From Natronolimnohabitans innermongolicus JCM 12255 (GTDB lineage: Archaea > Halobacteriota > Halobacteria > Halobacteriales > Natrialbaceae), in assembly GCF_000337215.1 (NCBI RefSeq), contig NZ_AOHZ01000015.1, positions 51,925 through 88,948 of the forward strand: a stretch of 37,024 nt of DNA. The letters run 5' to 3'. The position numbers and the translations under genes were made by a program. The notes beneath the pieces were generated by a model. It saw only the letters and a list, made by a program, of their open reading frames with translations, ran no database searches and had not been told where the DNA came from. Position 1 is the stretch's first letter; every line of letters starts with the position of its first letter. Of this stretch, positions 1-18,782 are shown in pieces.

Positions 1-1
1 T

Positions 2-87
2 CTATAGTAGCCAGTGAAAGTCAATGCACACCCGATCGCAGGACAGCGTCGCGATCGGTGTGTAAATCGTTTCACTGGCTACTATAG
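2..87. repeat. Nested inverted-repeat element (MITE-like)
   Basis: The outer arms are perfect 18-bp complements: CTATAGTAGCCAGTGAAA at 2-19 and its reverse complement at 70-87. Inner arms at about 25-39 and 51-64 (TGCACACCCGATCGC against GCGATCGGTGTGTA) pair with one bulge and one mismatch, leaving a loop of about 11 bases. The whole 86 bp can therefore fold into one long hairpin. It lies a few codons inside what looks like the start of a toxin gene (ATG at 99-101, minus strand), so it looks like an insertion. A closely related arm with one base different (CTATAGTAGCCACTGAAC) occurs alone at 29777-29794. I do not recognise a named family. Confidence 0.8.
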
Positions 88-118
88 TACGAGAAACGCA
101 TCGATATTCTTGCCCCTA

Positions 119-352
119 CTATCCGCTGCCCCCGTCAAACGTGGACTCCCGATCGTCGGCCTCGAGAAACCCGGCGATATCCTCTTTGACAGCGGTATGG
201 GTCTCCCGGTCGAGGACGCCCGCGCCAGTGACGTCGGCGAGCTGGCGACGCTCCTCGAGGTGGTCGCTGATGACGTCACTGAAACTTCGATCTCCTTTCT
301 CCCGTTTGAGTTCACGATGGACCTCGTCGGAGATCGAGATGTTCTTGCTCAT
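119..352 (-). CDS. VapB-like antitoxin, orphaned from its toxin
   Basis: This 77-residue acidic protein opens with MSKNISISDEVHREL, which looks like a short ribbon-helix-helix-type DNA-binding start. It continues with a charged helical segment (about 15-45) and ends in an acidic tail containing FLEADDREST. Small antitoxins of this haloarchaeal type normally sit directly before a PIN-domain toxin. Here a candidate toxin ATG follows at 101-99 on the same strand, but the reading frame is cut after about five codons by the inverted-repeat element at 2-87, so the cognate toxin is broken or displaced. The last 20 codons and the following bases closely match the 3' ends of the two UPF0175 remnants at 2445 and 4787, so the three gene ends have been shuffled. 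Start chosen at the ATG of 350-352. The family is inferred from size, motif and context. Confidence 0.65.
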   Translation of the reverse strand: MSKNISISDEVHRELKREKGDRSFSDVISDHLEERRQLADVTGAGVLDRETHTAVKEDIAGFLEADDRESTFDGGSG

Positions 353-537
353 ACCGTGCTATGGGTACTCATACGCAAAACGTTCTGTCGCGCTCGAGGC
401 ACGGTTGCATCCCACTCGCAGGATACGATCGGTCGATGAGGAGAGAATCCCCACCCGTCCCGTGAACCGACGGTCGAGCCCCAGTGGATCCGCGGAACTT
501 CGAGTCGGACGCCAGCGAGACCGACGGACTGACCGGA

Positions 538-745
538 GACAGCTGTCGTCTCCGGCCACGCACACCAGCACCGTCTCCAGCAGGGACCACCGACAACCAC
601 TCGAGGACCTAGCCACGACTACCCAGCCCACGAACCAACCGCGATCGCGTGTAAATGGGCGGTGTGCGAGCGCGTGGTGGCCCCTCTCGAGGCGTGTCAG
701 GCGGGGGCGTTCACGGTCACCCGAGGACGTCAGCTGTCTCCGGGG
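538..745 (-). repeat. Repeat R, copy A (3' tip and flank of the coiled-coil gene)
   Basis: This is one of five related segments. It starts with CAGCTGTCGTCTCCGG at 540-555 and ends with CAGCTGTCTCCGG at 731-743. Near the right end it keeps only the last codons of the coiled-coil gene (ETADVLG and stop at 717-719, minus strand). The interior shares blocks with copies B, D and E, such as CTCTCGAGGCGTGTCAGGCG. No gene is visible inside it. It lies on the upstream side of the orphan antitoxin at 119-352. Confidence 0.65.
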
Positions 746-845
746 GTCCGTCGGTCGTGCTCGAGTCCGAACTCGAGGCCGGGTTCGTCGACTCGCTCAA
801 GGTCGGCACTAGTGACAACTGCAGCATCAAACACTGTATATCGGG
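730..845 (-). pseudogene. PIN-domain toxin, C-terminal remnant
   Basis: Reading the minus strand gives about 38 codons that include TVFDAAVVTSADLERVD, then a stop at 730-732. The pattern 'AVVTSADLERV' resembles the last strand and acidic loop of PIN ribonucleases (typically VVTxDxDF). No start codon, catalytic N-terminal aspartate or preceding domain is present, so this can only be a 3' fragment. Its final codons are fused to repeat R copy A, which also supplies the stop. Confidence 0.35.
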
Positions 846-869
846 TATGGTGTCAGCTTCCGAAACGAG

Positions 870-1028
870 TCACTCGTGCTCGAGTGCCGCGTAGATCTCG
901 GCGTGACGACGTCCGTCGAGTTTTCCCATCTCGAGGGCGATCTCGTGACGTTCATCGTCAGTCTCGGTCGATTGATACCGCTCGTATAACCGGCAGACCC
1001 CTTTATACCGTTGCAGGATCCACTCGAT
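870..1028 (-). pseudogene. Antitoxin-like C-terminal remnant without a start codon
   Basis: There are 52 open codons (including KGVCRLYERYQ and EIALEMGKLDGRRHAEIYAAL) between an in-frame TGA at 1031-1029 and the stop at 870-872. The sequence is charged and helical and reads as a genuine protein end, but no ATG, GTG or TTG precedes it except an internal Met. It overlaps the end of vapC by about 26 bases. It is followed on the same strand by the PIN-like remnant at 730-845, so together they may be the ruins of a toxin-antitoxin pair. I do not recognise the family. Confidence 0.35.
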
Positions 1029-1434
1029 TCACGATGCCATCGAAGTCATCGTCGAAACTCACGATAGAATCGATGTCGTGACGCTGGCACAGCGCGACAG
1101 ATGCTGCATCGGTGAAACTCAGCGCTTGATCGTCATATCGCTCGAAGATATCGACGGTATCGGCGAACACCGCCGCCGAAACGCGGAGCATCTCGTACGC
1201 CTTCGGATACGACCCGGCGCCCCGAAGCTTTTCGCCGAGTTGCTTTGCCGGTTCGAACGAGCCACTCCGCCGAAGCGTGAGCGTAACCGCTTCGTCGTAG
1301 ATGTAGTCACTTACGTACGGCTGGCCGAATTCGCCGTCGTAGATGACATTGAGCACAGTACTGGCGGCGTCGTGTCTAGACGCATCGAAATCGTGATCCG
1401 CGTACAACACGCCCGTGTCGACGAGAATCGTCAT
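1003..1434 (-). CDS. vapC: VapC-type PIN-domain ribonuclease toxin
   Basis: This is a 143-residue PIN-domain protein. The expected acidic residues are visible: D6 in MTILVDTGVL, E48 in IYDEAV, D109 in SFTDAAS and the DDDF cluster at about 128-131. These coordinate the divalent metal of the nuclease centre. VapC enzymes cleave specific RNAs (tRNAs or rRNA) and stop growth when released from VapB. The length is normal for the family. The start ATG overlaps the stop of the upstream antitoxin by four bases (ATGA), the usual translational coupling. This looks intact and is probably the only complete VapBC pair here. The RNA target cannot be predicted from the sequence. Confidence 0.88.
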   Translation of the reverse strand: MTILVDTGVLYADHDFDASRHDAASTVLNVIYDGEFGQPYVSDYIYDEAVTLTLRRSGSFEPAKQLGEKLRGAGSYPKAYEMLRVSAAVFADTVDIFERYDDQALSFTDAASVALCQRHDIDSIVSFDDDFDGIVNRVDPATV

Positions 1435-1706
1435 CCGTACAGGATCTCGTCGATGTCCGATTCGTCAGTTTCGACGCCAGACCGGAAGCGATCACGACGC
1501 ATCGCCTCTTTATCGTCTTCCGAGAGCGGGACCGTCGACTCTCGGAACGAATCGATAACGTCGTCACGCGATTCGAACGCGTCGTCGATGAGACGTGTGA
1601 GGAGATCCTGTTGTGTGACGGTGGTCCCCGTCCGAAGCCGTATCTCCGCCTGGAGTTCCTCGAGTCGCGATTTCGCATCTTCGTCGACTTTGACGGCCGT
1701 TGCCAT
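1431..1706 (-). CDS. vapB: VapB-type antitoxin
   Basis: This 91-residue antitoxin begins MATAVKVDEDAKSRLEELQ. A short beta strand followed by a helix is the ribbon-helix-helix DNA-binding pattern, with a second helix at about 30-50 (TVTQQDLLTRLIDDAF). The C-terminal half is acidic and probably unstructured until it wraps around VapC. A GTG two codons upstream (1712) is possible, but the ATG at 1706 gives the better family fit. The gene overlaps vapC by 4 bp. A perfect 6-bp palindrome, GGTTAC-TTCC-GTAACC, lies 8 bases upstream of the start and is a good candidate for the autoregulatory operator. Confidence 0.82.
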   Translation of the reverse strand: MATAVKVDEDAKSRLEELQAEIRLRTGTTVTQQDLLTRLIDDAFESRDDVIDSFRESTVPLSEDDKEAMRRDRFRSGVETDESDIDEILYG

Positions 1707-1713
1707 ACGCACT

Positions 1714-1729
1714 GGTTACTTCCGTAACC
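1714..1729. promoter_or_regulatory. Palindromic operator candidate upstream of vapB
   Basis: GGTTAC at 1714-1719 and GTAACC at 1724-1729 form a perfect inverted repeat with a 4-base spacer, immediately before the vapB start codon at 1706. Ribbon-helix-helix antitoxins usually bind palindromes overlapping their own promoter, so the position fits autoregulation. Function is inferred. Confidence 0.5.
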
Positions 1730-1741
1730 GGGTAAACGTTT

Positions 1742-1888
1742 CTACGACAGGCTACTGAGGCTGCTCTCCAACGGAATCCCCGTACTATCTCGCTCGAGAC
1801 GGTCGATTTGCTGGTTGCGTTCGAAGACGATGAACGGATTCGTATCGATGACGTGCGCGTCGACGGACGGAAACAGTCGATCACCCAT
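1742..1888 (-). pseudogene. PIN-domain toxin, N-terminal remnant
   Basis: An ATG at 1888 starts a 48-codon frame containing DAHVIDTNPFIVFERNQQI. 'VIDTNxFIxFER' is the first strand and catalytic aspartate loop of a PIN domain. The frame stops at 1742-1744, before the remaining two thirds of the fold, so the gene is truncated. It lies between the decayed PIN gene at 1895-2439 and vapB, and probably lost its 3' part when the VapBC module arrived. Confidence 0.5.
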
Positions 1889-1894
1889 TCGGAC

Positions 1895-2439
1895 TCACTT
1901 CCGCGACGGATCGTCGACATCATGTCGTCGTGCAACGTCTCGGACGACTCGGCGAAGCTTTCGATCGCCCGTTACTAGCCGAACCGGTTCGTCCCGGGCC
2001 AGTCCACAGACGAGTGCCGGGATGTACTGATCGTCTTTCACGTCGTGTTCCGGAAGCGAGTCGTCTGCTATTTATCGTCGCGATTCGTCGATTACGGCCC
2101 CATACCGTTCGAAATCCGGAGTCCGCTCGATCAGTAGTCCCTCTTCGACCAACTGCTGGATATTTCGGGCAGATGCCCGGTGGTTCTCCGGGGCGTTCTC
2201 GGCGGTCAACTGAAGTTCGGACTGGGTCGGTGAAACGACGTTCAGCCAGCCATCATTATAGACTTGACCGTGTCGATACGGGACACGAACTCGTATCCAG
2301 CAGCATCAGCACGGTCGAGTTCAGCGACGACTGCCGTCGGTGTACCGACGACCTCGAAAACGGTCGGAAACAACGACAGTCGTTCTATCTTCGCTACTGC
2401 ACTCAAAACGCTGTCGACGATCGTCATCGATCTTCTCAC
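1895..2439 (-). pseudogene. Degenerate PIN-like toxin (partner of the UPF0175 remnant)
   Basis: The minus strand starts with TIVDSVLSAVAKIERLSLFP, which resembles the 'VVDSSxLIALAKIxRLxLL' start of PIN-like toxins (DUF3368 type) that pair with UPF0175 antitoxins. The frame breaks near 2250. It resumes in another frame (NDGWLNVVSPTQSEL) and is interrupted by TAA at 2072-2074. It then continues in frame with DDQYIPALVCG and RLVTGDRKLRRVV, the acidic and VTxDRxL end of a PIN domain, to a stop at 1895-1897. With at least one frameshift and one nonsense codon it cannot make the full protein. It may be a composite of two genes, because the middle section looks partly like a winged-helix segment. 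Confidence 0.55.
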
Positions 2440-2444
2440 TTCTG

Positions 2445-2763
2445 CTATCCGCTGAACCCGTCCAACGTGGACTCCCGGTCGTCAGCCTCGAGAAAACCGG
2501 CGTCGCGCTCGATTCCGCGGTCGGACAGTTCGTCCGTGAACTCCTCGGTCGACGTTCCCGCCAGTTCGGCGGCCCGATTGAGACTTCCATCGCCCGCTCG
2601 GTACTTCTCGACGGCGAGCGACGTCCGGAGTTGCGGGCGGCGACGCAGCAGTTCGCGAAGCGTCCTCGAGGACGTCGTCCTCGTCCTCGTACCCACCGAC
2701 GGCCGCAATCGTCTCGATATCGTTCGCGAGGCCGGTCAGTAGTCGTCCGTACGGTCGAATTAC
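2445..2763 (-). pseudogene. UPF0175 antitoxin, frameshifted copy 1
   Basis: The N-terminal half (LTGLANDIETIAAVGGYEDE, then DVLEDA) is in one frame. The C-terminal half (LRELLRRRPQLRTSLAVEKY, then LNRAAELAGTSTEEF) is in another. Together they make a normal UPF0175 antitoxin of roughly 90-100 residues. The frames separate at about 2657-2664, where GACGCTTCGC lacks two bases relative to the expected GACGCGCTTCGC. Copy 2 starts with GTG at the equivalent position, whereas here the codon is GTA, so this copy also lacks a start. The decayed PIN-like toxin follows directly downstream, as in functional UPF0175/PIN modules. Confidence 0.65.
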
Positions 2764-2802
2764 AGATAAACGCTGGGACGCGGTCGACGGCACCCGTCCG
2801 TG

Positions 2803-3010
2803 GACAGCCGTCGTCTCCGGACGGCGACTCGAGGCCGTCCCCGCTCTATACTGCCGAGACTGTTCGAGAAGGGACACCCACGACTACCGACACCAACGAA
2901 CAGCGGGTCGCGACGGGTGGGTTACGGCGTGGTGAGAGCGTGGTGACCGCTCTCGAGGCGCGTCAGGCGGGGGCGTCCACGGTCAGCCGAGGACGTCAGC
3001 TGTCTCCGGG
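2803..3010 (-). repeat. Repeat R, copy B
   Basis: The copy begins with CAGCCGTCGTCTCCGG (2805-2820) and ends with CAGCTGTCTCCGG (2997-3009). It contains the coiled-coil gene stop (2983-2985) and about 180 bp of its 3' flank. Long blocks match copy E (for example CGGCGTGGTGAGAGCGTGGTGA). The frameshifted UPF0175 gene starts about 40 bp beyond its left end. Confidence 0.7.
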
Positions 3011-3572
3011 CGGTCGGTGTCTGACTGGCGCTCGCTCGTACTCTCGCTCTCACTCGAGCGTGCGCCCGAGCGGGACCCTGTTCTCTCGCCCGGAATCTCG
3101 GCGTCCGCCGGGAGGTGCAGCCGGCGTTCGGTGTACTCGAGGCCGTTCTTTCGCTGACTGTGTTTCCGGACCGCCAGGCGGTGCTTGGAGAGCTCGAGGA
3201 TGGCGTCATCGGCGGCTTCGCCGCCTTCTCGAGACTCCTGCGGAGTCTCGCCGTGCGGGAGACGAGCTTTTTCGCGTAGGCGTCGCTCGTCCCGGGTTCC
3301 TGTCTGCGGATCCAGTGTTTGAGTTCGGAGGCGGTGACGGACTCACGGACGGACGCACAGCCTTCGGTCCAGGGATCGTCGCCTACGGTAGGGTCGGTGC
3401 GGGCTTCCCAGAGTTTCGCGGCGAGCCCGGTCGGCAGGGCGTCCGTACTCGAGCGCCGGAGATCCTCGTCCATCCGGGCCAGTTGCTGGATCGGGAGGAG
3501 ATCCCCGTGGGCCAGCCGGGTGTCAGTGCGTTCTAATGGGTCCTCGGAACCCGGGACGCGGTAGTAAGTACC
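2983..3572 (-). pseudogene. Truncated, disrupted copy of the coiled-coil gene C-terminus
   Basis: The segment matches the last ~190 codons of the intact gene at 9416-10582. It includes YYRVPGSEDPLERTDTR, LAHGDLLPIQQLARMDE and WTEGCASVRESVTASELKHW, and ends ETADVLG. The 5' part, with the coiled coil, is absent. A 41-bp net insertion consisting of two tandem hairpins (3211-3250) replaces four bases and shifts the frame in the middle of the helix that reads SRTIDAILEL in the intact gene. The start is lost. It is best read as a duplication of the gene's 3' end and not as a functional paralogue. Confidence 0.75.
3211..3250. repeat. Tandem paired-hairpin insertion (copy in B)
   Basis: GGCGGC-TTC-GCCGCC (3211-3225) is followed after four bases by CGAGACTCC-TGC-GGAGTCTCG (3230-3250). 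Both stems are perfect. The insertion is absent from the intact gene and present at the identical position in the copy at 6701-6740, so it was inherited through duplication. Confidence 0.8.
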
Positions 3573-3660
3573 CCTTGACGAACGAAGCTCAAAATCCCGT
3601 GGTTGATTTTGTGATATGATCTGTCGAATGTAGTTACTGTTCTGAACGCATCGGTTGTCG

Positions 3661-3742
3661 CCAGCCGTAATCGTCTCGGTATCTTTTGCGAGGCCGGGTA
3701 ATAGTCGTCCGTACGGTCGACTCTCAGATACCCACTGGGAAA
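3661..3742 (-). pseudogene. UPF0175 antitoxin 5'-end fragment (copy 3)
   Basis: About 80 bp closely resemble the 5' ends of the UPF0175 remnants: GTAATCGTCTCGGTATC here against GCAATCGTCTCGATATC, and AGTCGTCCGTACGGTCGA shared with copy 1. Only the start region and about 15 codons remain. It lies just beyond the 3' end of hepT, while copy 2 lies on the 5' side of mntA, so the MntA/HepT module is bracketed by pieces of UPF0175 genes. Confidence 0.55.
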
Positions 3743-3794
3743 AGAACAGCGAGCGCGATGAATCGTTTCCCAGCGGTAACGTACTCCGATCCGA

Positions 3795-4217
3795 TCATCG
3801 AGCTCGGAACCACGTCGCAATTTCCTGCTGAAATCGATCAATCCACTCGAGGTCGTCCTGTAGGACATCGTATACGAGGTCGTGATCGACATCCCCGTAT
3901 CGGTGAGCGAGATGATTACGAAATCCGACCGCCTCCGCGAGTTTTGCACCGGTCTCAGTTGCGATGATATCGGCTTCGACGAGGGCCTCGATTTCCTCGC
4001 GCGAGGTTTCAGCAGTTCCGAGGTTCTCGTTGGCACGAATATGGCTCGCCAGATCGATACACGACTGAATCGCGTTCATCAACGACCGTTCGACGGCGCG
4101 CTGGAGAACGATATCCTCGAGGTACTCGTCTCTGGAGACGTTCCGCATCTTTTTACATTCGTTCGAATACTGGTTGATCAGTTCGAGTCGATCTACGACG
4201 ACATCTTCGTCGACCAT
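3795..4217 (-). CDS. hepT: HepT-like (DUF86) toxin of the MntA/HepT module
   Basis: This is a 140-residue helical HEPN-superfamily protein. The diagnostic RX4HXY motif is present as R100-NHLA-H105-R-Y107. In studied MntA/HepT systems this motif forms an RNase site or is the target of AMPylation by MntA, which neutralises the toxin. The protein is full length, with an acidic first helix (MVDEDVVVDRLELINQY). Its ATG overlaps the mntA stop by one base, the standard order and coupling for the family. Both genes appear intact, in contrast with the decayed antitoxins on each side. Likely role: growth arrest during plasmid loss or phage infection. Confidence 0.9.
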   Translation of the reverse strand: MVDEDVVVDRLELINQYSNECKKMRNVSRDEYLEDIVLQRAVERSLMNAIQSCIDLASHIRANENLGTAETSREEIEALVEADIIATETGAKLAEAVGFRNHLAHRYGDVDHDLVYDVLQDDLEWIDRFQQEIATWFRAR

Positions 4218-4663
4218 TAGACGTCTCCCTCGGCCAGTCGATCGATGAACTCCTGGCGCTGCCGTTCGCGTCGGTCACTCGAGGCCTCGACGCGTCGCTC
4301 GAGGCGTCGCTCGTCCGCCGCTCTCGTCTCGGTATCACCGTAAATACAGATTCCGTTTCGAAGCGCGTTCAACGCGACCGTCTCGGGAAGCGCTTCGATG
4401 TCACTGACGTCCACGAACGGGGCGGCGTACGACTGGCTTTCGGCGTCGATTCGATTTCGTTGCCGGAACCGCTCGCGTCGCGAACAGCCCTCGGCGAACC
4501 GCACACCGAGATCGATATCCGAAGTCGGTGATTCCGTTCCCGCGGCATGCGACCCGAAGACAACGGCGTACCGGACGTCGGCGTCAGCGAACAGCGATCG
4601 CAGTCCCTCGAGGTCGATACTCGCAGCGATCTCCGCGGCCGACTCGTGCGGATCCTCCCGCAT
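4217..4663 (-). CDS. mntA: MntA-like minimal nucleotidyltransferase antitoxin
   Basis: This is a 148-residue minimal nucleotidyltransferase. The catalytic signature GSX10DXD is complete: G37-S38 in VVFGSHAAGT, then D49 and D51 in TSDIDLGV. MntA antitoxins transfer AMP to the tyrosine of the HepT RX4HXY motif. The C-terminal third (about 100-148) is rich in Arg and Glu and extends beyond the minimal fold. The ATG at 4661-4663 has a TATA-like box (AGTATAAG, 4688-4695) about 28 bases upstream, so the two-gene transcript is probably leaderless. It forms an operon with hepT. Confidence 0.88.
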   Translation of the reverse strand: MREDPHESAAEIAASIDLEGLRSLFADADVRYAVVFGSHAAGTESPTSDIDLGVRFAEGCSRRERFRQRNRIDAESQSYAAPFVDVSDIEALPETVALNALRNGICIYGDTETRAADERRLERRVEASSDRRERQRQEFIDRLAEGDV

Positions 4664-4687
4664 GGCGTCACATACGTCCGGATTCCT

Positions 4688-4695
4688 CTTATACT
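4688..4695 (-). promoter_or_regulatory. TATA box for mntA-hepT
   Basis: AGTATAAG on the minus strand is centred about 28 bases before the mntA ATG. This is the spacing expected for a leaderless haloarchaeal promoter. Confidence 0.5.
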
Positions 4696-4786
4696 ATCGG
4701 TGTCTCGGGCCAGTTCTCGTTAGTACAAACGCTGCGTCGGCGACTGCTGAACGATTATCACGGGGACCTACTCCTCTTCAATTCAA

Positions 4787-5117
4787 CTACCCACAGAACC
4801 CGTCCAACGTGGACTCTCGATCGTCGGTCTCGAGAAAGCCGGCGTCGCGCTCGATGCCGCGGTCGGCCAGTTCCGTTTTGAACTCCTTGGCCTCGGTCGA
4901 CGTTCCCGCCAGTTCGGCGGCCCGATTGAGACTTCCGTCGCCCGCCCGGTACGTCTCGACGGCGAGCGACGTCCGGAGTTGCGGGCGGCGACGCAACAGT
5001 TCGCGAAGCGTCCTCGAGGACGTCGTCCTCGTCCTCGTCCTCGTACCCGCCGACGGCCGCAATCGTCTCGATATCGTTCGCGAGGCCGGTCAGTAGTCGT
5101 CCGTCCGGTCGACTCAC
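4787..5117 (-). pseudogene. UPF0175 antitoxin, frameshifted copy 2
   Basis: A GTG at 5117 opens a frame with RLLTGLANDIETIAAVGGYE and DVLEDA. The UPF0175 core (LRELLRRRPQLRTSLAVETY, LNRAAELAGTSTEAKEF, ELADRGIERDAGF) continues in another frame to the stop at 4787-4789. The break is at about 5005-5013 and has exactly the same sequence (GACGCTTCGC) as in copy 1. No toxin of its own follows; MntA/HepT lies downstream instead. An extra GAGGAC repeat unit lengthens the acidic EDEDEDD stretch relative to copy 1. Confidence 0.65.
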
Positions 5118-5155
5118 GGATACCCGCTGGGACGCGTTCGATACGAGCGTCCGTA

Positions 5156-5310
5156 GACAGCCGTCGTCTCCCGACGGCGACTCGAGGGCGTCCGTCTTCT
5201 AGACTACCGAGAGACCCTTCGGTCTCTCGTCGTTTCGTTCGCGTCGCTCACGAAACTACCGAGACTGCTCGAGCAGGATACTCACGACTACCGTATCCAA
5301 CGAACAGTGT
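5156..5310 (-). repeat. Repeat R, copy C (flank only)
   Basis: It begins with CAGCCGTCGTCTCC at 5158-5171 and shares CGACTCGAGGGCGTC and CTACCGAGACTGCTCGAG-type blocks with copies B, D and E. It lacks the coiled-coil gene end and the right-hand CAGCTGTCTCCGG motif. A paired-hairpin insertion (5208-5256) interrupts it. The frameshifted UPF0175 copy 2 starts about 40 bp beyond its left end, the same arrangement as copy B. Confidence 0.6.
5208..5256. repeat. Tandem paired hairpins with stems unlike the 3211 pair
   Basis: CGAGAGACC-CTTC-GGTCTCTCG (5208-5229) is followed by GTTTCGT (5232-5238) and ACGAAAC (5250-5256). The two-stem layout resembles the insertions at 3211 and 6701 but the stem sequences differ. 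Confidence 0.65.
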
Positions 5311-5428
5311 ATACTCGAGGAGGCTCCAACCGAGACTAGTACTTCGTGATGCGTCGACGTGCGAGTCGCATATCGGTCAACCGGTGTTCGGCACGGACGG
5401 CCTTCCCGAGGACGTGCAGCTGCAGTGA

Positions 5429-5842
5429 CTACGCTTCTTCGACCATCCTCACGAACTCGTCGGGTGTAACGATGTCCACCCCGTCGTACGAGTGGAGATC
5501 GAGGAGATCTTCGTCACCGGAAACGAGGACGTCCGCATCACCTTCGACCGCACACTCGAGGAATTTATCGTCATCAGCGTCCCGCACTCGCGTAATCGAG
5601 TTCTCGGTCTGGACGATCTCGGCTTCGAGTCGGAGCAATGTGAGATACTGGGTCCGTTCGGCACCCGTAAACGGAAGACGGTCATACTCCATCACTCGCT
5701 CGAGTTCTCTGAGCGGTTCTTCAGATGCGACCAGCTGTCTCTCTTCGTCGAACGTCCGAAGCAACGCTTCGAGCGGTCGTCCACCGAATCCGAGCGCCGA
5801 GACACTCACGTTCGTATCGACGACTACTCGGAGCGAGCCAAT
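5429..5842 (-). CDS. PIN-family toxin with no conventional start codon
   Basis: The open frame reads LRVVVDTNVSVSALGFGGRP, the N-terminus of the 'putative toxin, PIN family' group (the strand ending in the catalytic aspartate of VVVDTN). The other acidic residues appear in DADDDKFLECA and VSGDEDLLDL, and the end DIVTPDEFVRMVEE is normal. Between the upstream in-frame TGA and the VVVDTN motif there is no ATG, GTG or TTG; the only near-start is ATT at 5842-5840. The first GTG (5809) lies after the catalytic aspartate and would give a dead protein. Either a non-standard start, translational coupling with the overlapping antitoxin stop (5824-5826), or inactivation must apply. Confidence 0.7.
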   Translation of the reverse strand: MGSLRVVVDTNVSVSALGFGGRPLEALLRTFDEERQLVASEEPLRELERVMEYDRLPFTGAERTQYLTLLRLEAEIVQTENSITRVRDADDDKFLECAVEGDADVLVSGDEDLLDLHSYDGVDIVTPDEFVRMVEEA

Positions 5843-6087
5843 GCGATCGCGTCCTCGAGATCGTCTTCAGTCACGCCTTCCGCTTCGAATCGCTGGCGAG
5901 TCCGTTCGGTGAGCGCTCGGAATTCTGCCTTTCGGTCGGCGTTCGCCAGATCCTCTTCGGCACCAAGCCGAGCTGCGAGCACTGCGAGGGCTGTCGCCCG
6001 GGTGCTTCCGGTTCCAGTCGTCCCTGTGTCGCGGTCTCGAGCCGTATATTCGCCGTCCTCCTCAGTGATCTCGACTGTTGCACCCAT
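5824..6087 (-). CDS. HicB-like antitoxin paired with the PIN toxin
   Basis: This is an 87-residue protein. The first 42 residues (MGATVEITEEDGEYTARDRD, then GTGSTRATALAVLAARLG) look like the HicB-type beta-strand fold. The second half (FRALTERTRQRFEAEGVTED and DLEDAIALARSE) is a charged helical region of the sort that binds PIN toxins. The ATG at 6085-6087 is clear. The stop lies about 17 bases inside the open frame of the PIN toxin, so the two are translationally coupled. This mixed HicB-like/PIN pairing differs from the classical HicA/HicB module. Repeat R copy D begins about 90 bp upstream. Confidence 0.7.
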   Translation of the reverse strand: MGATVEITEEDGEYTARDRDTGTTGTGSTRATALAVLAARLGAEEDLANADRKAEFRALTERTRQRFEAEGVTEDDLEDAIALARSE

Positions 6088-6175
6088 TGAACGTCTGTCC
6101 GTACATACGTGACCAGCTTGGTAAATCGTTACGGTGGCCCCAGACGAACTCGTGCCGTCTCCGTCCGAAGTGACC

Positions 6176-6386
6176 GTGGACAGCTGTCGTCTCCGGACGA
6201 CCGCTCGAGGGCGTCTCCTTTGTTGACTGCCGAGACTGCTCGAGGAGGGAGACCCACAGCTATCGACACCTGCTAGCGAGGGGGGCGCGGCGGTTCGGTC
6301 GGGGTGGTTGAGAGGCGTGTGGGCTCTCTCGAGGCGCGTCAGGCGGGGGCGTCCACGGTCAGCCGAGGACGTCAGCTGTCTCCGGG
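6176..6386 (-). repeat. Repeat R, copy D
   Basis: It runs from CAGCTGTCGTCTCCGG (6181-6196) to CAGCTGTCTCCGG (6373-6385) and contains the coiled-coil gene stop at 6359-6361. It shares CGCTCGAGGGCGTCTCCTTTG and GACTGCCGAGACTGCTCGAG with copy E. It lies directly upstream of the HicB-like/PIN module. Confidence 0.7.
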
Positions 6387-6700
6387 CGGTCGGTGTCTGA
6401 CTGGCGCTCGCTCTCACTCTCGCTCGAGTCGTTGGCGTTGGTCGTGTCTCGGTCGTCACTCGAGTCGTCTGTGTCTGGGTCGTCGCTCGAGTCGTCCGTG
6501 TCGGGGTCGTCGCTCGAGTCGGTCATCTCGTCTGGAGTCGTGGCGGTCGTCTTATCCGAGGTCGAGCGGTTCGTCTCCCCCGGAATCTCGGCGTCGGCCG
6601 GGAGGATCAGCCGGCGTTCGGTGTACTCGAGGCCGTTCTTTCGCTGACTGTGTTTACGGACCACCAGCCGGTTCTTGGAGAGCTCGAGGATCGCGTCATC

Positions 6701-6740
6701 GGCGGCTTCGCCGCCTTCTCGAGACTCCTGCGGAGTCTCG
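6701..6740. repeat. Tandem paired-hairpin insertion (copy in D)
   Basis: It is identical to the one at 3211-3250: GGCGGC-TTC-GCCGCC then CGAGACTCC-TGC-GGAGTCTCG. It sits at the same position in the duplicated gene end. Confidence 0.8.
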
Positions 6741-6797
6741 CCGTCCGCGAGACGAGCTTCTTGGCGTCGGTCTCGCTGATGCCGCTTTCTTGGCGTT

Positions 6798-6847
6798 CAC
6801 AAAATCGAAGCTTTTGTGCAGCCCATCAGAAGTCGAAGATTTCTGGG
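6798..6847. repeat. Second paired-hairpin insertion in copy D
   Basis: CACAAAA-TCGAAGC-TTTTGTG (6798-6818) is followed by CAGAA (6827-6831) and TTCTG (6841-6845), the latter pair extendable by CCC/GGG. Both loops contain the GTCGAAG/TCGAAG core. It is AT-rich compared with its surroundings and is absent from copies B and E, so it inserted after duplication. Confidence 0.65.
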
Positions 6848-7175
6848 ACGGCGGATCCAGTGTTTGAGATCGGAGGCGGTGACGTACTCCGCGACGGACT
6901 TGCAGCCGTCCGTTCAGGGATCGTCGCCGACGGTGGGATCAGCTCTGGCCTCCCAGAGCTTCGCCGCGAGTCTGGTCGGGAGGACGTCCGTCGTGGATCG
7001 GCGCATCTCCTCGTCGAGGCGGGCGAGTTGCTGGACCGGGAGCAGGTCCGCGTGGGCGAGTGCGACGTCGTCGTCCCGGTTCAGGGGATCGCCCCGCTCC
7101 GGGAGGCGGTCGTATCGGGTCCCGTTCGCCTTCGTGATCCGTTCGAACGATCGATCGGCGCTCGCCTCCACTATC

Positions 7176-7225
7176 TGTAACATCACTCGAAGCTTCTTTA
7201 TATTCAGATTTCGTACTATGTTACA
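7176..7225 (+). promoter_or_regulatory. Promoter and palindromic operator of the wHTH-nucleotidyltransferase pair
   Basis: A TATA box (TTTATATT, 7197-7204) lies about 27 bases before the GTG at 7228. It is flanked by perfect 8-bp inverted arms, TGTAACAT at 7176-7183 and ATGTTACA at 7218-7225. The symmetrical placement around the TATA box suggests repression by the winged-helix protein encoded next. Confidence 0.6.
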
Positions 7226-7227
7226 AC

Positions 7228-8154
7228 GTGCTGCGACGCATCGAACTCAAGGTCCTTGCCACTGTCACACGCGGCGACACAATCTCTGAACTCGCGACAA
7301 AGCTCGACCACAGCGAGAGCTATCTCTCCCGTGCCGTCGCGGACCTCGTCGGGAAGGGCCTCCTCTACACGGAACGCGACGGTCACCGGAAGCGGATCGT
7401 TCCCTCAGATGCCCGAGCCGTCGAAGTCTTCCAGGATCTCGTCCGCCAGCATTCCCACATCGATTTCGCCGAGTTGTTGACTGGGAAGGCCCTCGAGGTA
7501 CTCTACTACCTCGATCAGCCACGAACCGTGTCCGAAATCGCCGAGCGGAGCGACAACTACCGCAACACCGTCAACCGAGTCCTGAAGCGGCTTCGCGACC
7601 GTGGCCTCGTCGGCACGGACGACGGGCGCTACGACTTCAATGGTGACTTCGACCGACTACACGAGTTCGCACGGGAACTCGCCCATCATCTTCACCGACA
7701 CCGTCTCCGATCAGTCGCTTCGAACGGCACGATTCTCTGGGAGGACCACGATGAGTTTCTCGCACAGGCCGAGACGGCAATCGATGCGGAGCACTTCCAC
7801 GAAACCGGTCTCGCTCGGTTCGCGACGTTTGACCTCCAGTTTCTGCTGACCCGCCATCGCTACTACCTCTACTCCGAGGACCTGGAAACAGTCTCGCCGG
7901 CGGAACTCTGCTGTCATACGTTGCTGATCGACGACGACGCCCGCTACCGCTCGTACTGTCTTCTGTTGCTCAGTCACGTCGACGTCGACGAGAGCGATCT
8001 TCGAGACCGAGCGGCGAACTACGGCCTCGAAGACGAGATCGATGCGCTGCTCCGGTACCTCGAGACGCAGGGAGCAATCGACGATGACCGCCTCCCCGAG
8101 TGGGACGAGTTCCAGGAGCTGGCGGCTGACTACGAGGTGGATCTACCAGAATGA
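7228..8154 (+). CDS. Double winged-helix regulator/antitoxin paired with a nucleotidyltransferase
   Basis: This is a 308-residue protein. The N-terminal part (about 1-70) is a winged helix: ISELATKLDHSESYLSRAVA, then KGLLYTERDGHRKRIVPS. A second winged helix (about 95-145) contains TVSEIAERSDNYRNTVNRVL. The remaining 160 residues are helical and acidic without a motif I recognise. The stop overlaps the ATG of the nucleotidyltransferase (ATGA at 8151-8154). A wHTH protein translationally coupled to a DNA-polymerase-beta-type nucleotidyltransferase is the layout of AbiE-like type IV modules, which makes this the likely antitoxin and repressor. The GTG start is chosen because the TATA box is 27 bases upstream and no in-frame ATG fits. 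Confidence 0.75.
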   Translation: MLRRIELKVLATVTRGDTISELATKLDHSESYLSRAVADLVGKGLLYTERDGHRKRIVPSDARAVEVFQDLVRQHSHIDFAELLTGKALEVLYYLDQPRTVSEIAERSDNYRNTVNRVLKRLRDRGLVGTDDGRYDFNGDFDRLHEFARELAHHLHRHRLRSVASNGTILWEDHDEFLAQAETAIDAEHFHETGLARFATFDLQFLLTRHRYYLYSEDLETVSPAELCCHTLLIDDDARYRSYCLLLLSHVDVDESDLRDRAANYGLEDEIDALLRYLETQGAIDDDRLPEWDEFQELAADYEVDLPE

Positions 8155-8954
8155 GACCGACATTCGGACGCGAATACATCGAGAACGAGTTCCAGCGAAT
8201 CGCAGATGGGCTGTCCGACCCGCTCACGCTCTTCCTGATCGGTGGCGGCGCGATGTCGCTGCGCGACCTCAAGGAGGCGACGAAGGATATCGATCTCGTC
8301 GTCGCGGACGGCGACACGTACGGCCAGTTGTGGGCCGTCCTGATGGACCTCGAGTATGCGGAGGTACAATCACTGGCTGCTGACTACCGAGCACTGGGCG
8401 CGACCAGCTGCGTCGAGAACGACGACGGGTGCCGGCTCGATATCTTCAACCAGCAGGTGGCGAACAAGCTCGTGCTGACCGAGGGGATGCGCGACCGGAG
8501 CGAGCCGTTCCTCGACACGGGTCGATTAACGGTCCGGCTGGTCAGCAACGCGGATATCTTCTTATTCAAGCTGATCGCGGGACGCGACGACGATATCGAG
8601 GACATGAACGTGCTCGTGCAGGCTGGCGTCGACTACGACATCGTCCGAGATGAACTCGAAACACAGATCGACCGACTCGGAGACGACCAGTTCGTCACCT
8701 TCGCGAACGAGGCCCTGGTCGAACTCGAGGAGCGATACGGAGTGACCACCCCGATCGAGGACCGCGTTCGAGAGCTGACGAATCGGTACTATCGGGGACT
8801 CGAGGTCCTCCACGCACTCGACGAACCGATGCCCGTCGACGAACTGGCCGCCGATCTCGGACTGGATCTCGAGGAAGTCCGAGACCGGGTCGCGTATCTT
8901 GTCGACTTCGACCGGGTACGCCACGCAGGCGACACAGTCAGTCCGGTGGAGTAG
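8151..8954 (+). CDS. Nucleotidyltransferase-fold toxin candidate (AbiEii-like)
   Basis: This is a 267-residue protein. LFLIGGGAMSLRDLKEATKD (about 28-46) followed by IDLVV carries the nucleotidyltransferase signature GGxAxxx...TxDID, with D46 and D48 as metal ligands. RLDIFNQQVANKLVLTEGM supplies the third acidic position and conserved helices. The C-terminal 60 residues (PMPVDELAADLGLDLEEVRD) look like an extra helix-turn-helix, which is unusual for AbiEii-type enzymes. Such toxins transfer nucleotides onto tRNA or other RNAs. It is coupled to the upstream winged-helix gene by a 4-bp overlap. All catalytic positions visible to me are intact. Confidence 0.72.
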   Translation: MRPTFGREYIENEFQRIADGLSDPLTLFLIGGGAMSLRDLKEATKDIDLVVADGDTYGQLWAVLMDLEYAEVQSLAADYRALGATSCVENDDGCRLDIFNQQVANKLVLTEGMRDRSEPFLDTGRLTVRLVSNADIFLFKLIAGRDDDIEDMNVLVQAGVDYDIVRDELETQIDRLGDDQFVTFANEALVELEERYGVTTPIEDRVRELTNRYYRGLEVLHALDEPMPVDELAADLGLDLEEVRDRVAYLVDFDRVRHAGDTVSPVE

Positions 8955-9232
8955 TCCGGTCGTCACGCCTGCTGTCAGTCGGGACAGGTACACGACTCGC
9001 CGATGCCATCGGTTTCATATCGGCTTCCGGATGCAGACTACAACGCGTACCGACCACCGTTCGAGAGGCACAAGACATCCATCGCTTCGTCGGCGGCGTG
9101 CTGGGCCCGTGGCTCGAGGTCGTCCTGTGGGTACGGGGTGTCGTCAACGACCAGCCGGTCGCGGACGTCGCCAGTTTGTCCTCCTACAGTCGTCAAATTC
9201 CATCGTCACGTCTCGGCATCTCTCGATCCTCC
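8955..9232. other. Intergenic stretch with a possible minus-strand remnant
   Basis: No complete gene is visible. On the minus strand about 45 codons ending at 9038-9040 (DVRDRLVVDDTPYPQDDLEP, then AADEAMDVLCLSNGGRYAL) read like a protein end, but they have no start and I do not recognise the family. It is probably the ruin of another module between the nucleotidyltransferase gene and repeat R copy E. Confidence 0.3.
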
Positions 9233-9443
9233 GTGGACAGCCGTCGTCTCCGGACAGCGACTCGAGGGCGTCTCCTTTGTTGACTGCCGAGACTGCTCGA
9301 GAAGGGACACCCACGACTACCGACTCCAACGAACGACGGCTCGTGGCGGGTCGATCACGGCGTGGTGAGAGCGTGGTGACCTCTCTCGAGGGACATTAGG
9401 CTAGGCCGTCCACGGTCAGCCGAGGACGTCAGCTGTCTCCGGG
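9233..9443 (-). repeat. Repeat R, copy E (flank of the intact coiled-coil gene)
   Basis: This is the presumed parental copy. CAGCCGTCGTCTCCGG (9238-9253) marks the left end. CAGCTGTCTCCGG (9430-9442) lies inside the last codons of the intact gene (stop at 9416-9418). The ~180 bp between are the gene's 3' flank, repeated in copies A-D. Confidence 0.7.
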
Positions 9444-10582
9444 CGGTCGGTGTCTGACTGGCGCTCGCTCGTACTCTCGCTCGAGGTCGCGCGACCGGGT
9501 TTGCCTAGGTTCGCGCTGGTGGGATCGCCCTCGTGGTCGCGGTCGTGCTCACGCTCGTGTTCGCTCTCACTCGAGCGGGACCCTGTTCTCTCGCCCGGGA
9601 TCTCCGCGTCCGCCGGGAGGATCAGCCGGCGTTCGGTGTACTCGAGGCCGTTCTTGCGCTGACTGTGCTTGCGGACCGCGAGGCGATGCTTGGAGAGCTC
9701 GAGGATGGCGTCGATGGTTCGGGAGACGAGCTTCTTGGCGTAGGTCTCGCTGATGCCTTGCTCCTGTCTGCGGATCCAGTGTTTGAGGTCGGAGGCGGTG
9801 ACGGACTCGCGGACGGACGCACAGCCCTCGGTCCAGGGATCGTCGCCCACGGTGGGGTCGGCTCTCGCCTTCCAGAGTTTCGCGGCGAGTCTGGTCGGCA
9901 GGGCGTCCGTCGCGGAGCGGCGCAGCTCCTCGTCCATCCGGGCCAGTTGCTGGATCGGGAGGAGATCCCCGTGGGCCAGCCGGGTGTCGGTGCGCTCGAG
10001 CGGGTCCGCGGCGTCGGGGACGCGGTAGTAGGCGCGGCCGTCGTCCGCGGTGAATCGCTCGAGGTGGTCGCACTCGAGGTCGATCTCGGCGGGGTCGACG
10101 GTGGTCTCGCGGAGGTGGGCGCCCTTCTCGAGTTCGCGGGCCTGGAGCTCCCTGATGCGGCGCTTGTTGGCGTTGGCCTTGTTCAGGGCCGCCTCGAGTC
10201 TGGTGGTCGTGGGGATCGTCTCGAGGAGGGTGGCGTGGGACTCGAGGCGTTGGGTATGGGTCTCGAGGCGTTGGGTATGGGACTCGAGGGTGTCCGCGTG
10301 GGCCTCGAGGCGTTTGGTATGGGTCTCGAGAGTTTCCGTGTGAGACTCGAGTTCGTCAGCGTGAGCCTCGAGTCGACGCGCCCGTTCCGCGCACCGCTCG
10401 TCCTGGGTCTCGAGTCGCGACTCGAGTTCGGCCACGGTGGTCTCGAGCTCGTCGAGGCGACGCTCCCGTCGCTCGAGTTTCGTTTCCAGTTCGTCGATCC
10501 GGTCGTCCCTGGTCTCGAGTGCGCGTTCGACAGCCTCGAGTCGGTCCGTGAGGGACTCGAGGGTGGGCTGTGGGTCACGCAT
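9416..10582 (-). CDS. Coiled-coil protein of unknown function, intact parent of the repeated gene ends
   Basis: From the ATG at 10582 (MRDPQPTLESLTDRLEAVER) the protein has 388 residues. An upstream in-frame start would add a low-complexity Thr/Arg stretch and is unlikely. Residues ~5-140 form a long coiled coil, including seven consecutive 7-residue repeats of the type RLExHxx (21-bp DNA repeats, 10229-10375). A conserved domain follows (YYRVPDAADPLERTDTRLAH, LPTRLAAKLWKARADPTVGD) and then a segment resembling a helix-turn-helix (ASDLKHWIRRQEQGISETYA, AILELSKHRLAVRKHS). The end is disordered and acidic. The ATG overlaps the stop of the upstream gene by 8 bp. I do not recognise the family; a plasmid or provirus origin and DNA binding are inference. 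Its 3' end has been copied four more times to the left. Confidence 0.8.
   Translation of the reverse strand: MRDPQPTLESLTDRLEAVERALETRDDRIDELETKLERRERRLDELETTVAELESRLETQDERCAERARRLEAHADELESHTETLETHTKRLEAHADTLESHTQRLETHTQRLESHATLLETIPTTTRLEAALNKANANKRRIRELQARELEKGAHLRETTVDPAEIDLECDHLERFTADDGRAYYRVPDAADPLERTDTRLAHGDLLPIQQLARMDEELRRSATDALPTRLAAKLWKARADPTVGDDPWTEGCASVRESVTASDLKHWIRRQEQGISETYAKKLVSRTIDAILELSKHRLAVRKHSQRKNGLEYTERRLILPADAEIPGERTGSRSSESEHEREHDRDHEGDPTSANLGKPGRATSSESTSERQSDTDRPETADVLG
10229..10375 (-). repeat. Seven 21-bp tandem repeats coding for heptads
   Basis: Consecutive units of CTCGAG-centred 21-mers encode RLEAHAD, ELESHTE, TLETHTK, RLEAHAD, TLESHTQ, RLETHTQ and RLESHAT. The exact heptad period preserves the coiled coil, and unit number may vary between strains. 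Confidence 0.85.
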
Positions 10583-11126
10583 CGTCGTCGCCCTCCGCGG
10601 CGTCGTGGTCGTCCGTGTGGTGGTCGTCGGTGGTGTCGTGGTCGTCGGTGTTCTGGTGGGTGTCGTGCTCGAGGTCGTCGGTGTCCGGGTCGCGTTCACG
10701 ATCGTCAGTCTCGTCCGAACTCGAGTCGGCGTCACGATCGCGTCGCCGCTGGTGGTATTCGAACGTCCGCGAATCCGGGCCGGAGTAGACCGTGGTTCCC
10801 GATCTATCGCCGTCGGCGTCGTCTGCGTCTCGCCCCTGCTCCCAGTCCGGCCGGTACGGGATCAGCGCCTCCGGCCCGTAGCACAACAGGCCGAGCTGGC
10901 CCACCTCCGCTCTGATCTCTCGGCAGCGACGGCGCGCCTCGCGGCGCTGCTCGTCGGTGAGTCGTTGGTTCTGGATTTCGGTGGCCGGATCGTGGAAGTG
11001 CTCGAGGAGTCGGCGGGTGAGATAGTCGATCGACTCGAGGTGCGTGCGGATCGTCTGCGTGGCAGTTTCGGTCTGTTCGTCCCGTCGGTCGGAGCTTTCA
11101 TTGCCCCGGGAATCGTCGTTTGACAT
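10575..11126 (-). CDS. Acidic-tailed protein of unknown function, first gene of the coiled-coil operon
   Basis: This is a 183-residue protein. Residues ~20-95 form a helical folded part (RTHLESIDYLTRRLLEHFHD, RLTDEQRREARRRCREIRAE, LGLLCYGPEALIPYRPDWE). After residue ~100 it becomes low-complexity, rich in Asp, His and Thr (TDDHDTTDDHHTDDHD), and probably disordered. The stop overlaps the coiled-coil gene by 8 bp, so the two are co-translated. I recognise no known family. The upstream 110 bp hold several nested hairpins. No TATA box is obvious within 30 bases of the ATG, so the transcript may have a leader containing those hairpins. Confidence 0.75.
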   Translation of the reverse strand: MSNDDSRGNESSDRRDEQTETATQTIRTHLESIDYLTRRLLEHFHDPATEIQNQRLTDEQRREARRRCREIRAEVGQLGLLCYGPEALIPYRPDWEQGRDADDADGDRSGTTVYSGPDSRTFEYHQRRRDRDADSSSDETDDRERDPDTDDLEHDTHQNTDDHDTTDDHHTDDHDAAEGDDDA

Positions 11127-11232
11127 GCTTCCGTACTCGGGTTACGGGAGCTTCTCGCGGACTCGGTGGCCCTAACACCGAGTCGCGATTTTGCGACTCA
11201 GTCGTTTGGTGAGTCACATTTGCTTCCGTACT
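11126..11232 (-). promoter_or_regulatory. Leader with mutually exclusive hairpins and a 12-bp direct repeat
   Basis: GACTCGGTG (11160-11168) pairs with CACCGAGTC (11176-11184). GAGTCGC (11180-11186) pairs with GCGACTC (11193-11199). The two stems share GAGTC at 11180-11184, so only one can form at a time. A third weak hairpin lies at about 11128-11151. The block is bracketed by TGCTTCCGTACT at 11126-11137 and 11221-11232. An attenuator-like leader, or a hairpin element with its target duplication, would both fit. Confidence 0.45.
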
Positions 11233-11359
11233 GAGAAGAACATACTCCATTGACATAAATCTTGACAACGACTGTCGACTGTAGAAAACAACGTTCGTAT
11301 ACAAACACGCAACGGATAGTGCTACTTTTTCTGCATTGCTGGCAGGTACTCACGGACAG

Positions 11360-11620
11360 ATGGTAGAGCGGGTCCCGTGGATGGCGCCTGTCGATTACGA
11401 AATTATGCTCTTCTTCGACGAGCACCCGATTCTGGTCTCTCCGAAGGTGCTTGCAGTGAATATCGAGTACGATCGGCAATACGTGAGTCGGCGTTGCAGT
11501 GCGCTTGTGGACGCAGGATTATTGGAGTCTGTTGACACTGGACTCTATGCACTTACCGAAATTGGTGAAGCGTACCTCGAGGGGAATATCGACGCGAAAG
11601 AGCTCGAACCTAGCGAATAA
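11360..11620 (+). CDS. Small winged-helix transcriptional regulator
   Basis: This is an 86-residue protein from the ATG at 11360. The pattern (YEIMLFFDEHPILVSPKVLA, DRQYVSRRCSALVDAGLLES, GLYALTEIGEAYLEG) is the winged-helix architecture of haloarchaeal MarR-like/PhiH1-repressor-like proteins. The recognition helix is around QYVSRRCSAL and the wing around DTGLYALTE. It sits at the boundary between the toxin-antitoxin island and the glycan locus, facing the same way as the asparagine-synthetase-like gene, and may control the locus or the island. The longer reading frame from a TTG at 11336 is less likely. Confidence 0.8.
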   Translation: MVERVPWMAPVDYEIMLFFDEHPILVSPKVLAVNIEYDRQYVSRRCSALVDAGLLESVDTGLYALTEIGEAYLEGNIDAKELEPSE

Positions 11621-11798
11621 GACGGACACTAGATGAGTTGAAACGAATACTCCGTAACAAGGTATCAAGTAGAGGATGTCTTGTCAGGCTGATTTGTGTT
11701 TGTGGTCGCCTCGTTGGTGTTATCAGCTGTTTAAACTGATATCCGTTACAATACAAATCAAGATACAGTCGGTAGGATAATACACTGATCAAAGATGG

Positions 11799-11804
11799 TT
11801 TATA
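11799..11804 (+). promoter_or_regulatory. TATA box for the asparagine-synthetase-like/flippase operon
   Basis: TTTATA is centred about 28 bases before the ATG at 11829. The 208-bp gap before that ATG is AT-rich and otherwise shows no gene. Confidence 0.5.
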
Positions 11805-11828
11805 CTCAGACCTTGATGTTATAGAAAT

Positions 11829-13733: not shown

Positions 13734-13737
13734 ATTT

Positions 13738-15174: not shown

Positions 15175-15240
15175 TGAAAACTTGGGAGCTAGGACCTACC
15201 AATAGATTAATTGAATTACTCAATAATCGATTCCAAGCGG

Positions 15241-15693
15241 TTAAATCAACCAGTGTGCCACAGCAGTTTCGATACTATCTGTAGCTTCGATCGGAATATT
15301 AATACACTCATCAAACATATGATCGGTTTCGGGAGGGATCTCACCGAGCTCGACCCATGAATACTGTGTTGAACCTTGATCCTGAATACGCAGCGCAACA
15401 CTTACAGATTGAGTGGTACTACTACTCCGATTACGAACTGTCCCAGAAACCATAGTACACGACTCTTCTCGATCTTCTTGAGTTGCATCAATTTCGAGTA
15501 ATTCTAATGATCCTCGCAAGTCGCCACGGTCTTCAAACTCAAATGCGCGTTGTGCAGCACGGCGTTCAATTACCTGTTGTTCATTCCTCGAGTGCCTTCC
15601 ACTAACTATGACAGAACCAGTAGTTGCGACACTCACTGATCCTACTCCACCAACTGCGTACAGTAATGAACGACGATTTAATTCAGGAGACAT
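15241..15693 (-). CDS. Small exported protein, last gene of the glycan operon
   Basis: This is a 150-residue protein. The N-terminus NRRSLLYAVGGVGSVSVATT has twin arginines before a hydrophobic stretch, consistent with a Tat signal or anchor. The rest (about 60-150) is a beta-rich domain (CTMVSGTVRNRSSSTTQSVS, VALRIQDQGSTQYSWVELGE) resembling the FxLYD-type extracellular domain. It probably sits on the outer face of the membrane. The start is 8 bases from the polymerase stop. The function in glycan assembly is unknown. Confidence 0.7.
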   Translation of the reverse strand: MSPELNRRSLLYAVGGVGSVSVATTGSVIVSGRHSRNEQQVIERRAAQRAFEFEDRGDLRGSLELLEIDATQEDREESCTMVSGTVRNRSSSTTQSVSVALRIQDQGSTQYSWVELGEIPPETDHMFDECINIPIEATDSIETAVAHWLI

Positions 15694-15700
15694 AATTGTA

Positions 15701-17236: not shown

Positions 17237-17239
17237 CTT

Positions 17240-18703: not shown

Positions 18704-18782
18704 TTGCTATGGGGAGGTAGCGACGGTGATTGATTCGAAGGTTATTGTTTCCATTTCCGATCAATTATATGAATTTGGCTAT

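Follow-up and report, generated by a model that had tools for sequence, protein, structure and literature searches.

The window, a 37,024-nucleotide stretch of contig NZ_AOHZ01000015.1 from the haloarchaeon Natronolimnohabitans innermongolicus JCM 12255, contains a row of toxin-antitoxin (TA) genes interspersed with repeated 3′ ends of a single gene and of a non-coding element adjoining it, designated R. The intact gene at the head of the row (copy E; positions 9416–10582, minus strand) encodes a protein of 388 residues with a coiled coil and, according to its translation and a structure model, a predicted C-terminal winged helix. Its R element (9229–9441, minus strand) is ~190 bp in length, possesses terminal inverted repeats, and overlaps the final codons of the gene. 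Four further copies lie to the left on the same strand. Copy D is a broken, 5′-truncated gene end of 285 codons with one internal TGA (6362–7216), followed by a complete R element (6173–6384). Copy C has no gene and consists of a damaged R element (5149–5306; pieces 5149–5214 and 5234–5306) that retains its outer end. Copy B is a broken, 5′-truncated gene end of about 190 codons (2986–3566; parts 2986–3207 and 3252–3566) with a complete R element (2796–3008), and copy A is a complete R element that includes the last codons without the gene body (532–742). The five copies were recovered with self-blastn, tblastn, and a profile of the 3′ element. An earlier note, made from the sequence alone, had described this recurrence of a gene end with its 3′ flank, and all five copies proved to be real. 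Their R elements share one orientation. The identity to E is 79% over 780 bases for D and 84% over 753 bases for B; owing to this similarity and to the recurrence of the arrangement in other genomes, the series is not a product of chance. The same note had set as a check the comparison of divergence with distance from position 9416, and no rise was found, B being closer to E in sequence than D is. In the 12 kb to the left of the window, no more R elements or gene pieces were found. An insertion of ~50 bp rich in palindromes (at about 3202–3253 and 6692–6743) is common to B and D and absent from the intact E.

The intervals between the copies are occupied by TA genes or candidates. The interval between E and D (7228–8954, plus strand) encodes an HVO_2833-type winged helix-turn-helix (wHTH) protein and a DUF6036 nucleotidyltransferase, together an AbiE-like candidate for a two-gene TA system. 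The cargo of the other intervals lies on the minus strand. Between D and C (5429–6090) are a PIN_3 toxin (5429–5809) and a putative antitoxin (5824–6090), the latter assigned by position only. Between C and B (3795–5062) are a HepT-like gene (3795–4217), an MNT gene (4217–4663), and a VapB-like, probably broken open reading frame (ORF; 4787–5062). Between B and A (1003–2708) are another VapB-like, probably broken ORF (2445–2708), a small ORF (2242–2439), a putative antitoxin (1431–1712), and a PIN toxin (1003–1434). A VapB antitoxin gene to the left of copy A (119–352, minus strand) ends the row; an imperfect inverted repeat (79% over 91 columns) is present beside it at the left edge of the window (2–87). 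The idea that a different TA module or its ruin stands beside each copy was borne out in that TA genes do lie between the copies, but a VapB-like ORF adjoins the R end of each of A, B, and C, and therefore the modules in the window are not all different. B and C share a block of the R end and the VapB-like ORF (87% over 436 bases by self-blastn), and such a block can therefore duplicate as one.

What had been taken for a 3′ flank is a discrete, conserved non-coding element. R is bounded by inverted repeats of ~23 bp, the left one being CCGGAGACAGCTGaCGTCC-CGG and the right one (as its reverse complement) CCGtgGACAgCtGtcGTCt-CgG, and in many copies the left repeat codes for the final residues of the protein (e.g., ..PETADVLG). 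Eighty loci were fetched from other places; they were hand-picked from the upper part of a score-ordered list and are not a random sample, and some genomes gave at least two. The term "intact" denotes possession of the full conserved core, start codons and frames not being proved individually. The profile, initially built from 37 of the 81 head copies (80 fetched loci and the window), detected R at every one of the 81 3′ ends (weakest E value, 4.5e-5). Among further loci, many of which were the same places refetched, R was found at 104 of 108 full-core copies; the four exceptions were two displaced copies, one of them seen twice, and one intact gene (L145). In diverged loci, similarity ends mostly soon after the right repeat of R. 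At the threshold used, strong repeat matches are frequent downstream and were not found 500–3000 bases upstream of the end of the core. R is also present 3′ of homologs about 44–51% identical in the core, namely on a 49-kb virus-like plasmid, on two viral contigs, and at locus L045. The scatter of R was determined with the profile, because blastn lacked the sensitivity for this purpose and detected none of the R elements of genome G087. A genome-wide search of eight genomes, the seven array genomes described below and G045, showed that R is nearly confined to gene copies and rows, a neighboring gene having been checked for at only part of the matches in the genomes other than those of the window and G045. 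The 14 matches in the genome of the window comprise six places in the row, three other intact copies, four reverse-strand echoes of the palindromic element, and one weak match (contig C23, E = 2.4e-4). A role as RNA was rejected as the main function of R: the consensus of 55 aligned elements folded weakly (RNAalifold, −7.4 kcal/mol, 14 pairs, one with changes on both sides), and an Rfam scan of window positions 1–12000 gave nothing up to E = 0.5.

Beyond the window, rows with at least one interval were found at 20 further loci from 18 further genomes, the intact gene coming first and truncated gene ends on the same strand and/or R after it. In line with the question posed in the earlier note, TA genes are rare at single-copy loci. 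Rows represent a minority of the loci; their extra R elements and gene ends follow downstream and, with few exceptions, point the same way. The surroundings of the 80 intact genes, to a distance of at most 9.5 kb, contained 30 extra gene pieces, 25 downstream and 5 upstream, and 29 of the 30 were on the same strand. As a control, 148 other genes of the same loci were examined; duplicates were found for 18 of them, with 13 pieces on the same strand and 9 on the opposite strand. The same-strand excess of the gene pieces over these duplicates is significant (Fisher p = 0.001). The longest rows have five (L060) and four (L099) further elements downstream, and several are present at L071, L149, L144, and L147. 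Among 50 elements scored as displaced, three of which (at L153, L109, and L089) actually belong to intact genes, 23 are complete, 16 retain the outer R end only, 7 the inner end only, and 4 neither. The outer end is therefore kept in 39 of 50. The detected gene ends begin at varied points, from alignment columns of about 158 to 359, these being approximate limits set by tblastn. The expectation that module junctions would fall at the same base accordingly holds in part: there is a constant boundary on the R side, base precision at R being unproved, but the boundary on the gene side varies.

The association of the rows with TA genes was examined in 47 intervals, each delimited by consecutive R elements or gene ends; they come from 19 genomes (21 loci, counting the window) and have a median length of 1388 bp. 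Eight intervals (62 ORFs) reaching the upstream side of an intact copy were excluded, two of which (L066 and L098) hold TA genes by eye, and one at L084 ending at an intact copy was kept. TA genes were recognized in 34 of the 47 intervals (30 of 43 if the window is excluded), from 16 loci in 15 genomes, compared to 7 of 62 single-copy loci in the region beside R and 1 of 59 loci at a distance of 6–8 kb. The earlier suggestion that TA modules accumulate behind the 3′ end of the gene is supported by these counts. At the level of ORFs, a phmmer search with labeled seeds classified as TA-like 54 of 119 ORFs in the intervals, 8 of 148 beside single-copy R elements (drawn at random from 160), and 1 of 117 in the far regions. 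The difference was also seen among ORFs of 45–200 residues (45/97, 7/90, and 1/54, respectively). As the seeds were taken from the intervals themselves, tallies of Pfam families, limited to the 25 commonest of 63, 124, and 130 families in the three sets, respectively, served as an unbiased check. The 119 interval ORFs included MNT (9), HepT (6), PIN (6), PIN_3 (4), DUF433 (5), PemK (4), UPF0175 (4), MazE (3), and RHH_1 (3), and scanning them singly added DUF5615, TumE, Fic, ParE, and DUF3368. PIN (8) and MazE (4) were among the 25 commonest families for the 148 ORFs beside single-copy R elements, and none of these TA families was among the 25 commonest for 116 of the far ORFs. Judging from sequence similarity, the cargo includes adjacent pairs of putative toxin and antitoxin genes of known type II families (MNT/HepT, DUF433/DUF5615, MazE/PIN, and MazE/PemK). 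Thirty-one TA ORFs have the same orientation as the row and 23 the opposite one. Five of the 119 interval ORFs match OrfB_IS605 (TnpB).

Comparisons between loci provided insight into how the rows change. L099 and L102 are one locus in two genomes (upstream regions 88–94% identical), and their cassettes differ. An MNT-HepT pair adjoins the R element of the intact gene at L136 but a displaced R element at L099, and a similar R-MNT stretch adjoins a displaced R element at L149. This distribution fits insertion at the head. In sequence, 21 of the 34 displaced ends resemble the resident intact gene most. Modules are probably also lost from such loci: L063 (contig C81 of the window's genome) retains the stretch from R to the MNT start codon without the module that its relative L093 has. 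In collinear loci, similarity often ends within a few bases of R. A base-precise insertion at R as the reading of these pairs was rejected, as several of them resume at the start codon or within an alignable, diverged spacer; the stops at R are not proof of insertion, because similarity also ends where an unconstrained spacer begins. The difference between L100 and L104 is due to a recent ordinary insertion sequence, which entered L104 at a point 68 bases beyond R and is accompanied by a short target duplication. Searches for an empty site yielded one short match of 139 bases for L134 (four sister genomes) and one other short match for L081 (eight genomes, one of them its own), with no clean empty/filled pair among them; the flank of a G045 copy, for which the genus was represented by G045 alone, gave no such pair either.

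The head gene belongs to a haloarchaeal family without a name, of a DNA-binding type according to its predicted winged helix. In the model of the 388-residue protein (AlphaFold2; mean predicted local distance difference test score 78.8, predicted template modeling score 0.39), a coiled coil (residues 8–152) and a C-terminal winged helix (about residues 257–323) are separated by a small mixed region. Pfam and NCBIfam gave nothing at the curated cut-offs, the sub-threshold matches being to the coiled coil, and a profile search against solved structures also matched chiefly the coiled coil. A Foldseek search of the model against the PDB and viral structures gave nothing at E ≤ 0.001; the best PDB match had an E value of 0.16, and several matches were wHTH proteins of the PadR type. 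Neither the model nor Foldseek led to recognition of a catalytic fold, and a role of the protein as a nuclease or recombinase was rejected. The YxxK within the invariant YAKKLVSR was likewise rejected as rolling-circle motif III, since it is located in the predicted recognition helix of the model. Of 125 genomes from the taxonomic family of the window, 89 gave a match to this protein family, a few of them (e.g., G014) in the coiled coil only. The protein family is present on 46 of 72,556 plasmid records, as well as on virus-like contigs and chromosomes, and a search of a phage collection gave no match.

Large integron arrays of bacteria often carry TA modules. As in integrons, including the archaeal ones (PMC9668308), short cassettes stand in a row, each closed by a repeated DNA element, beside a fixed head gene. 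The present rows differ from integrons in that the repeat consists of the 3′ part of a gene and a 190-bp element, the head gene codes for a coiled-coil/wHTH protein, and the TA genes have both orientations. They also differ in having no tyrosine recombinase nearby: in all seven array genomes examined, the contig bearing the array, or the region up to 100 kb from the array, yielded neither a tyrosine nor a serine recombinase, DDE-type transposases not having been searched for, and an IntI-type tyrosine recombinase adjoining the array was likewise found in none of the seven. These genomes are those of the window and of L060, L099, L071, L149, L092, and L146/L147, and five of the array contigs are draft contigs of 24–125 kb. 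PF00589 matches exist in all seven genomes, but off the array contig or, in two chromosome-size contigs, more than 100 kb from the array. Elements targeted to tRNA genes and staphylococcal cassette chromosomes at rlmH integrate at gene 3′ ends. The rows resemble the products of such integration in possessing an intact head gene, displaced ends downstream, and polar growth. They are unlike them in that the displaced ends vary in length (the longest in the window has ~285 codons), no recombinase carried by an element was seen, and the target gene itself occurs on plasmids and virus-like contigs. The system works somewhat like integrons and tRNA-type integration, yet does not show a linked integrase, cassettes mostly in one orientation, or displaced ends of constant length, which are among the features defining them. 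Neither integrons nor integration of the strict tRNA type, the analogy drawn in the earlier note, is supported, because the truncation points vary and no linked recombinase was found. No description of such TA rows was recognized in the open-access literature among the matches listed.

We propose that the row is an accretion of TA cassettes on a repeat made of the gene's 3′ part and R, that it grows by homologous recombination, and that it is kept by TA addiction; in our judgment, this proposal has an even chance of being correct. Incoming DNA with a gene-R end and a TA module, either a circle or the locus of a relative, would recombine homologously with the resident gene-R, and an intact gene would be rebuilt at the head with the old end left downstream. 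Recombination between direct repeats should delete the intervening DNA, and cells losing a TA module would be poisoned. TA-bearing intervals would persist for this reason, other cargo would be lost, and the displaced gene ends would decay to stubs. Homologous recombination and addiction together would account for the polarity, the resemblance of ends to the resident gene, the variable truncation, the occurrence of TA genes in both orientations, and the failure to find a linked recombinase.

Several observations weigh against this proposal. Neither a recombination event nor a circle was seen, nor was there a clean empty/filled pair. Thirteen of the 47 intervals have no recognized TA gene, and some modules (beside B and C) already look broken in their sequences. 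Nine of the 25 pieces located downstream cover over 170 residues of the core, and some rows are therefore tandem near-complete copies rather than stubs. The frequency of duplication alone is ordinary in view of the 18 control genes with duplicates; it is the orientation and polarity that are unusual. Thirteen of the 34 displaced ends are nearer to genes elsewhere. The intact gene of L145 (G133:C3, 8771–9670) has no R element at its 3′ end, and R pieces lie farther downstream. In addition, genome G045 contains six dispersed copies (L138–L143) of a gene-R unit of ~1.34 kb, which are 87–92% identical, differ in their flanks, and end sharply on the right; the profile search found no R matches in G045 other than those of these six copies. 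The copies suggest that the gene-R unit is able to move on its own, a behavior that homologous recombination by itself leaves unexplained.

R may instead be a recombination site at whose outer end the coiled-coil/wHTH protein or an unlinked recombinase inserts TA circles, much as IntI acts at attI. The inverted repeats bounding R, the outer end as the commonest constant boundary, the shortness of the cargo, and the frequent end of collinear similarity close to R are consistent with such site-specific capture. We regard it as unlikely, given that no catalytic domain was recognized in the protein, with only weak wHTH matches in the fold searches, that no tyrosine or serine recombinase was found in the vicinity of the seven arrays, that the other boundary shifts along the gene, and that an unconstrained spacer explains the stops in the collinear pairs as well. 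Plasmid backbones typically carry TA modules together with genes for replication or partition, and each displaced gene-R end could be the remnant of a separate plasmid or provirus of which the maintenance region (rep/ori and TA) survived tandem integration and decay. The presence of the gene on plasmid records and virus-like contigs and the 13 displaced ends nearer to genes elsewhere point in this direction. Against it are the shortness of the intervals, the lack of a prominent plasmid backbone family among the 25 commonest of their 63 Pfam families, the 21 of 34 ends nearest to the resident gene, and the small number of single-copy loci with TA genes beside R, and an origin from decayed plasmids also seems doubtful to us. 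That the gene-R unit is an unusual transposable element, and that the rows arose by its transposition into or beside earlier copies, with 5′ truncation and with TA genes as hitchhikers, is improbable: the G045 copies and the inverted repeats of R would suit it, but no transposase-like domain was recognized, no target-site duplication was seen by eye, no strong repeat match was seen, at the threshold applied, in the region 500–3000 bases upstream of the intact genes, and R is nearly confined to gene copies and rows in the seven array genomes.

The proposal of homologous accretion kept by addiction offers a concrete, repeatable account of TA collection in haloarchaea, in which a docking site is marked, the row is polar, and the displaced ends record past events. 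It also makes testable the old question whether addiction modules spread by preventing the loss of repeat-flanked DNA.

By analogy with known replicons, the gene-R pair is most likely a replication or maintenance module of plasmids and viruses. In SNJ2, with its Rep (Rep-Arvir/DUF7845), and in pRN1, the origin lies just downstream of rep, where a non-coding stretch of ~166–210 bp with inverted repeats or a stem-loop is required for replication (PMC13107129, PMC4234260); here, too, a gene is followed by a non-coding stretch with inverted repeats. A linked repressor gene is also present in pRN1 (PMC4234260). The head protein differs from the SNJ2 Rep in giving no match to PF25227 (DUF7845) at E = 0.05 and in having no recognized catalytic fold, and the likeness lies in the layout. 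The module would consist, in order, of a repressor-like gene, a structured leader, a small gene, the DNA-binding protein, and then its DNA site. A role in replication or maintenance would explain the spread over many replicons; the GC skew of one 49-kb virus-like plasmid gave it no support, showing no extreme at R. R is a candidate origin, partition, or binding site. The combination of this widespread, unnamed protein of the DNA-binding type and the conserved element 3′ of its gene, seen on plasmids and virus-like genomes of haloarchaea, is a promising candidate for a new system of replication or maintenance. More speculatively, and with a rather low expectation of being right, we consider that the coiled-coil/winged-helix protein binds the R element of its own gene, making R a programmed site for the capture, displacement, and storage of TA (perhaps other) cassettes, where stalling of replication or origin firing feeds recombination; this would be an undescribed archaeal cassette system. 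If true, one module both maintains the replicon and collects addiction modules.

Two small genes adjoin the head gene in the window. The first (10575–11126, minus strand) encodes 183 residues and overlaps the start of the head gene, and the second (11336–11620, plus strand), divergent from it and without an NCBIfam match, lies near the left edge of the conserved unit. Diverged loci share sequence as far as about the end of this divergent gene, and its position is occupied in annotated relatives by ArsR-, MarR-, or PhiH1-repressor-like genes, among others. A conserved leader with two hairpins (about 11127–11190, minus strand) directly precedes the ATG of the 183-residue gene. The leader pattern was found in 56 of 87 loci including the G045 copies, the pattern itself selecting the second hairpin; it displayed little covariation and no Rfam match. 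The G045 copies show two promoter variants. The region adjoining the array (11000–20000) has a low GC content of about 0.40–0.52.

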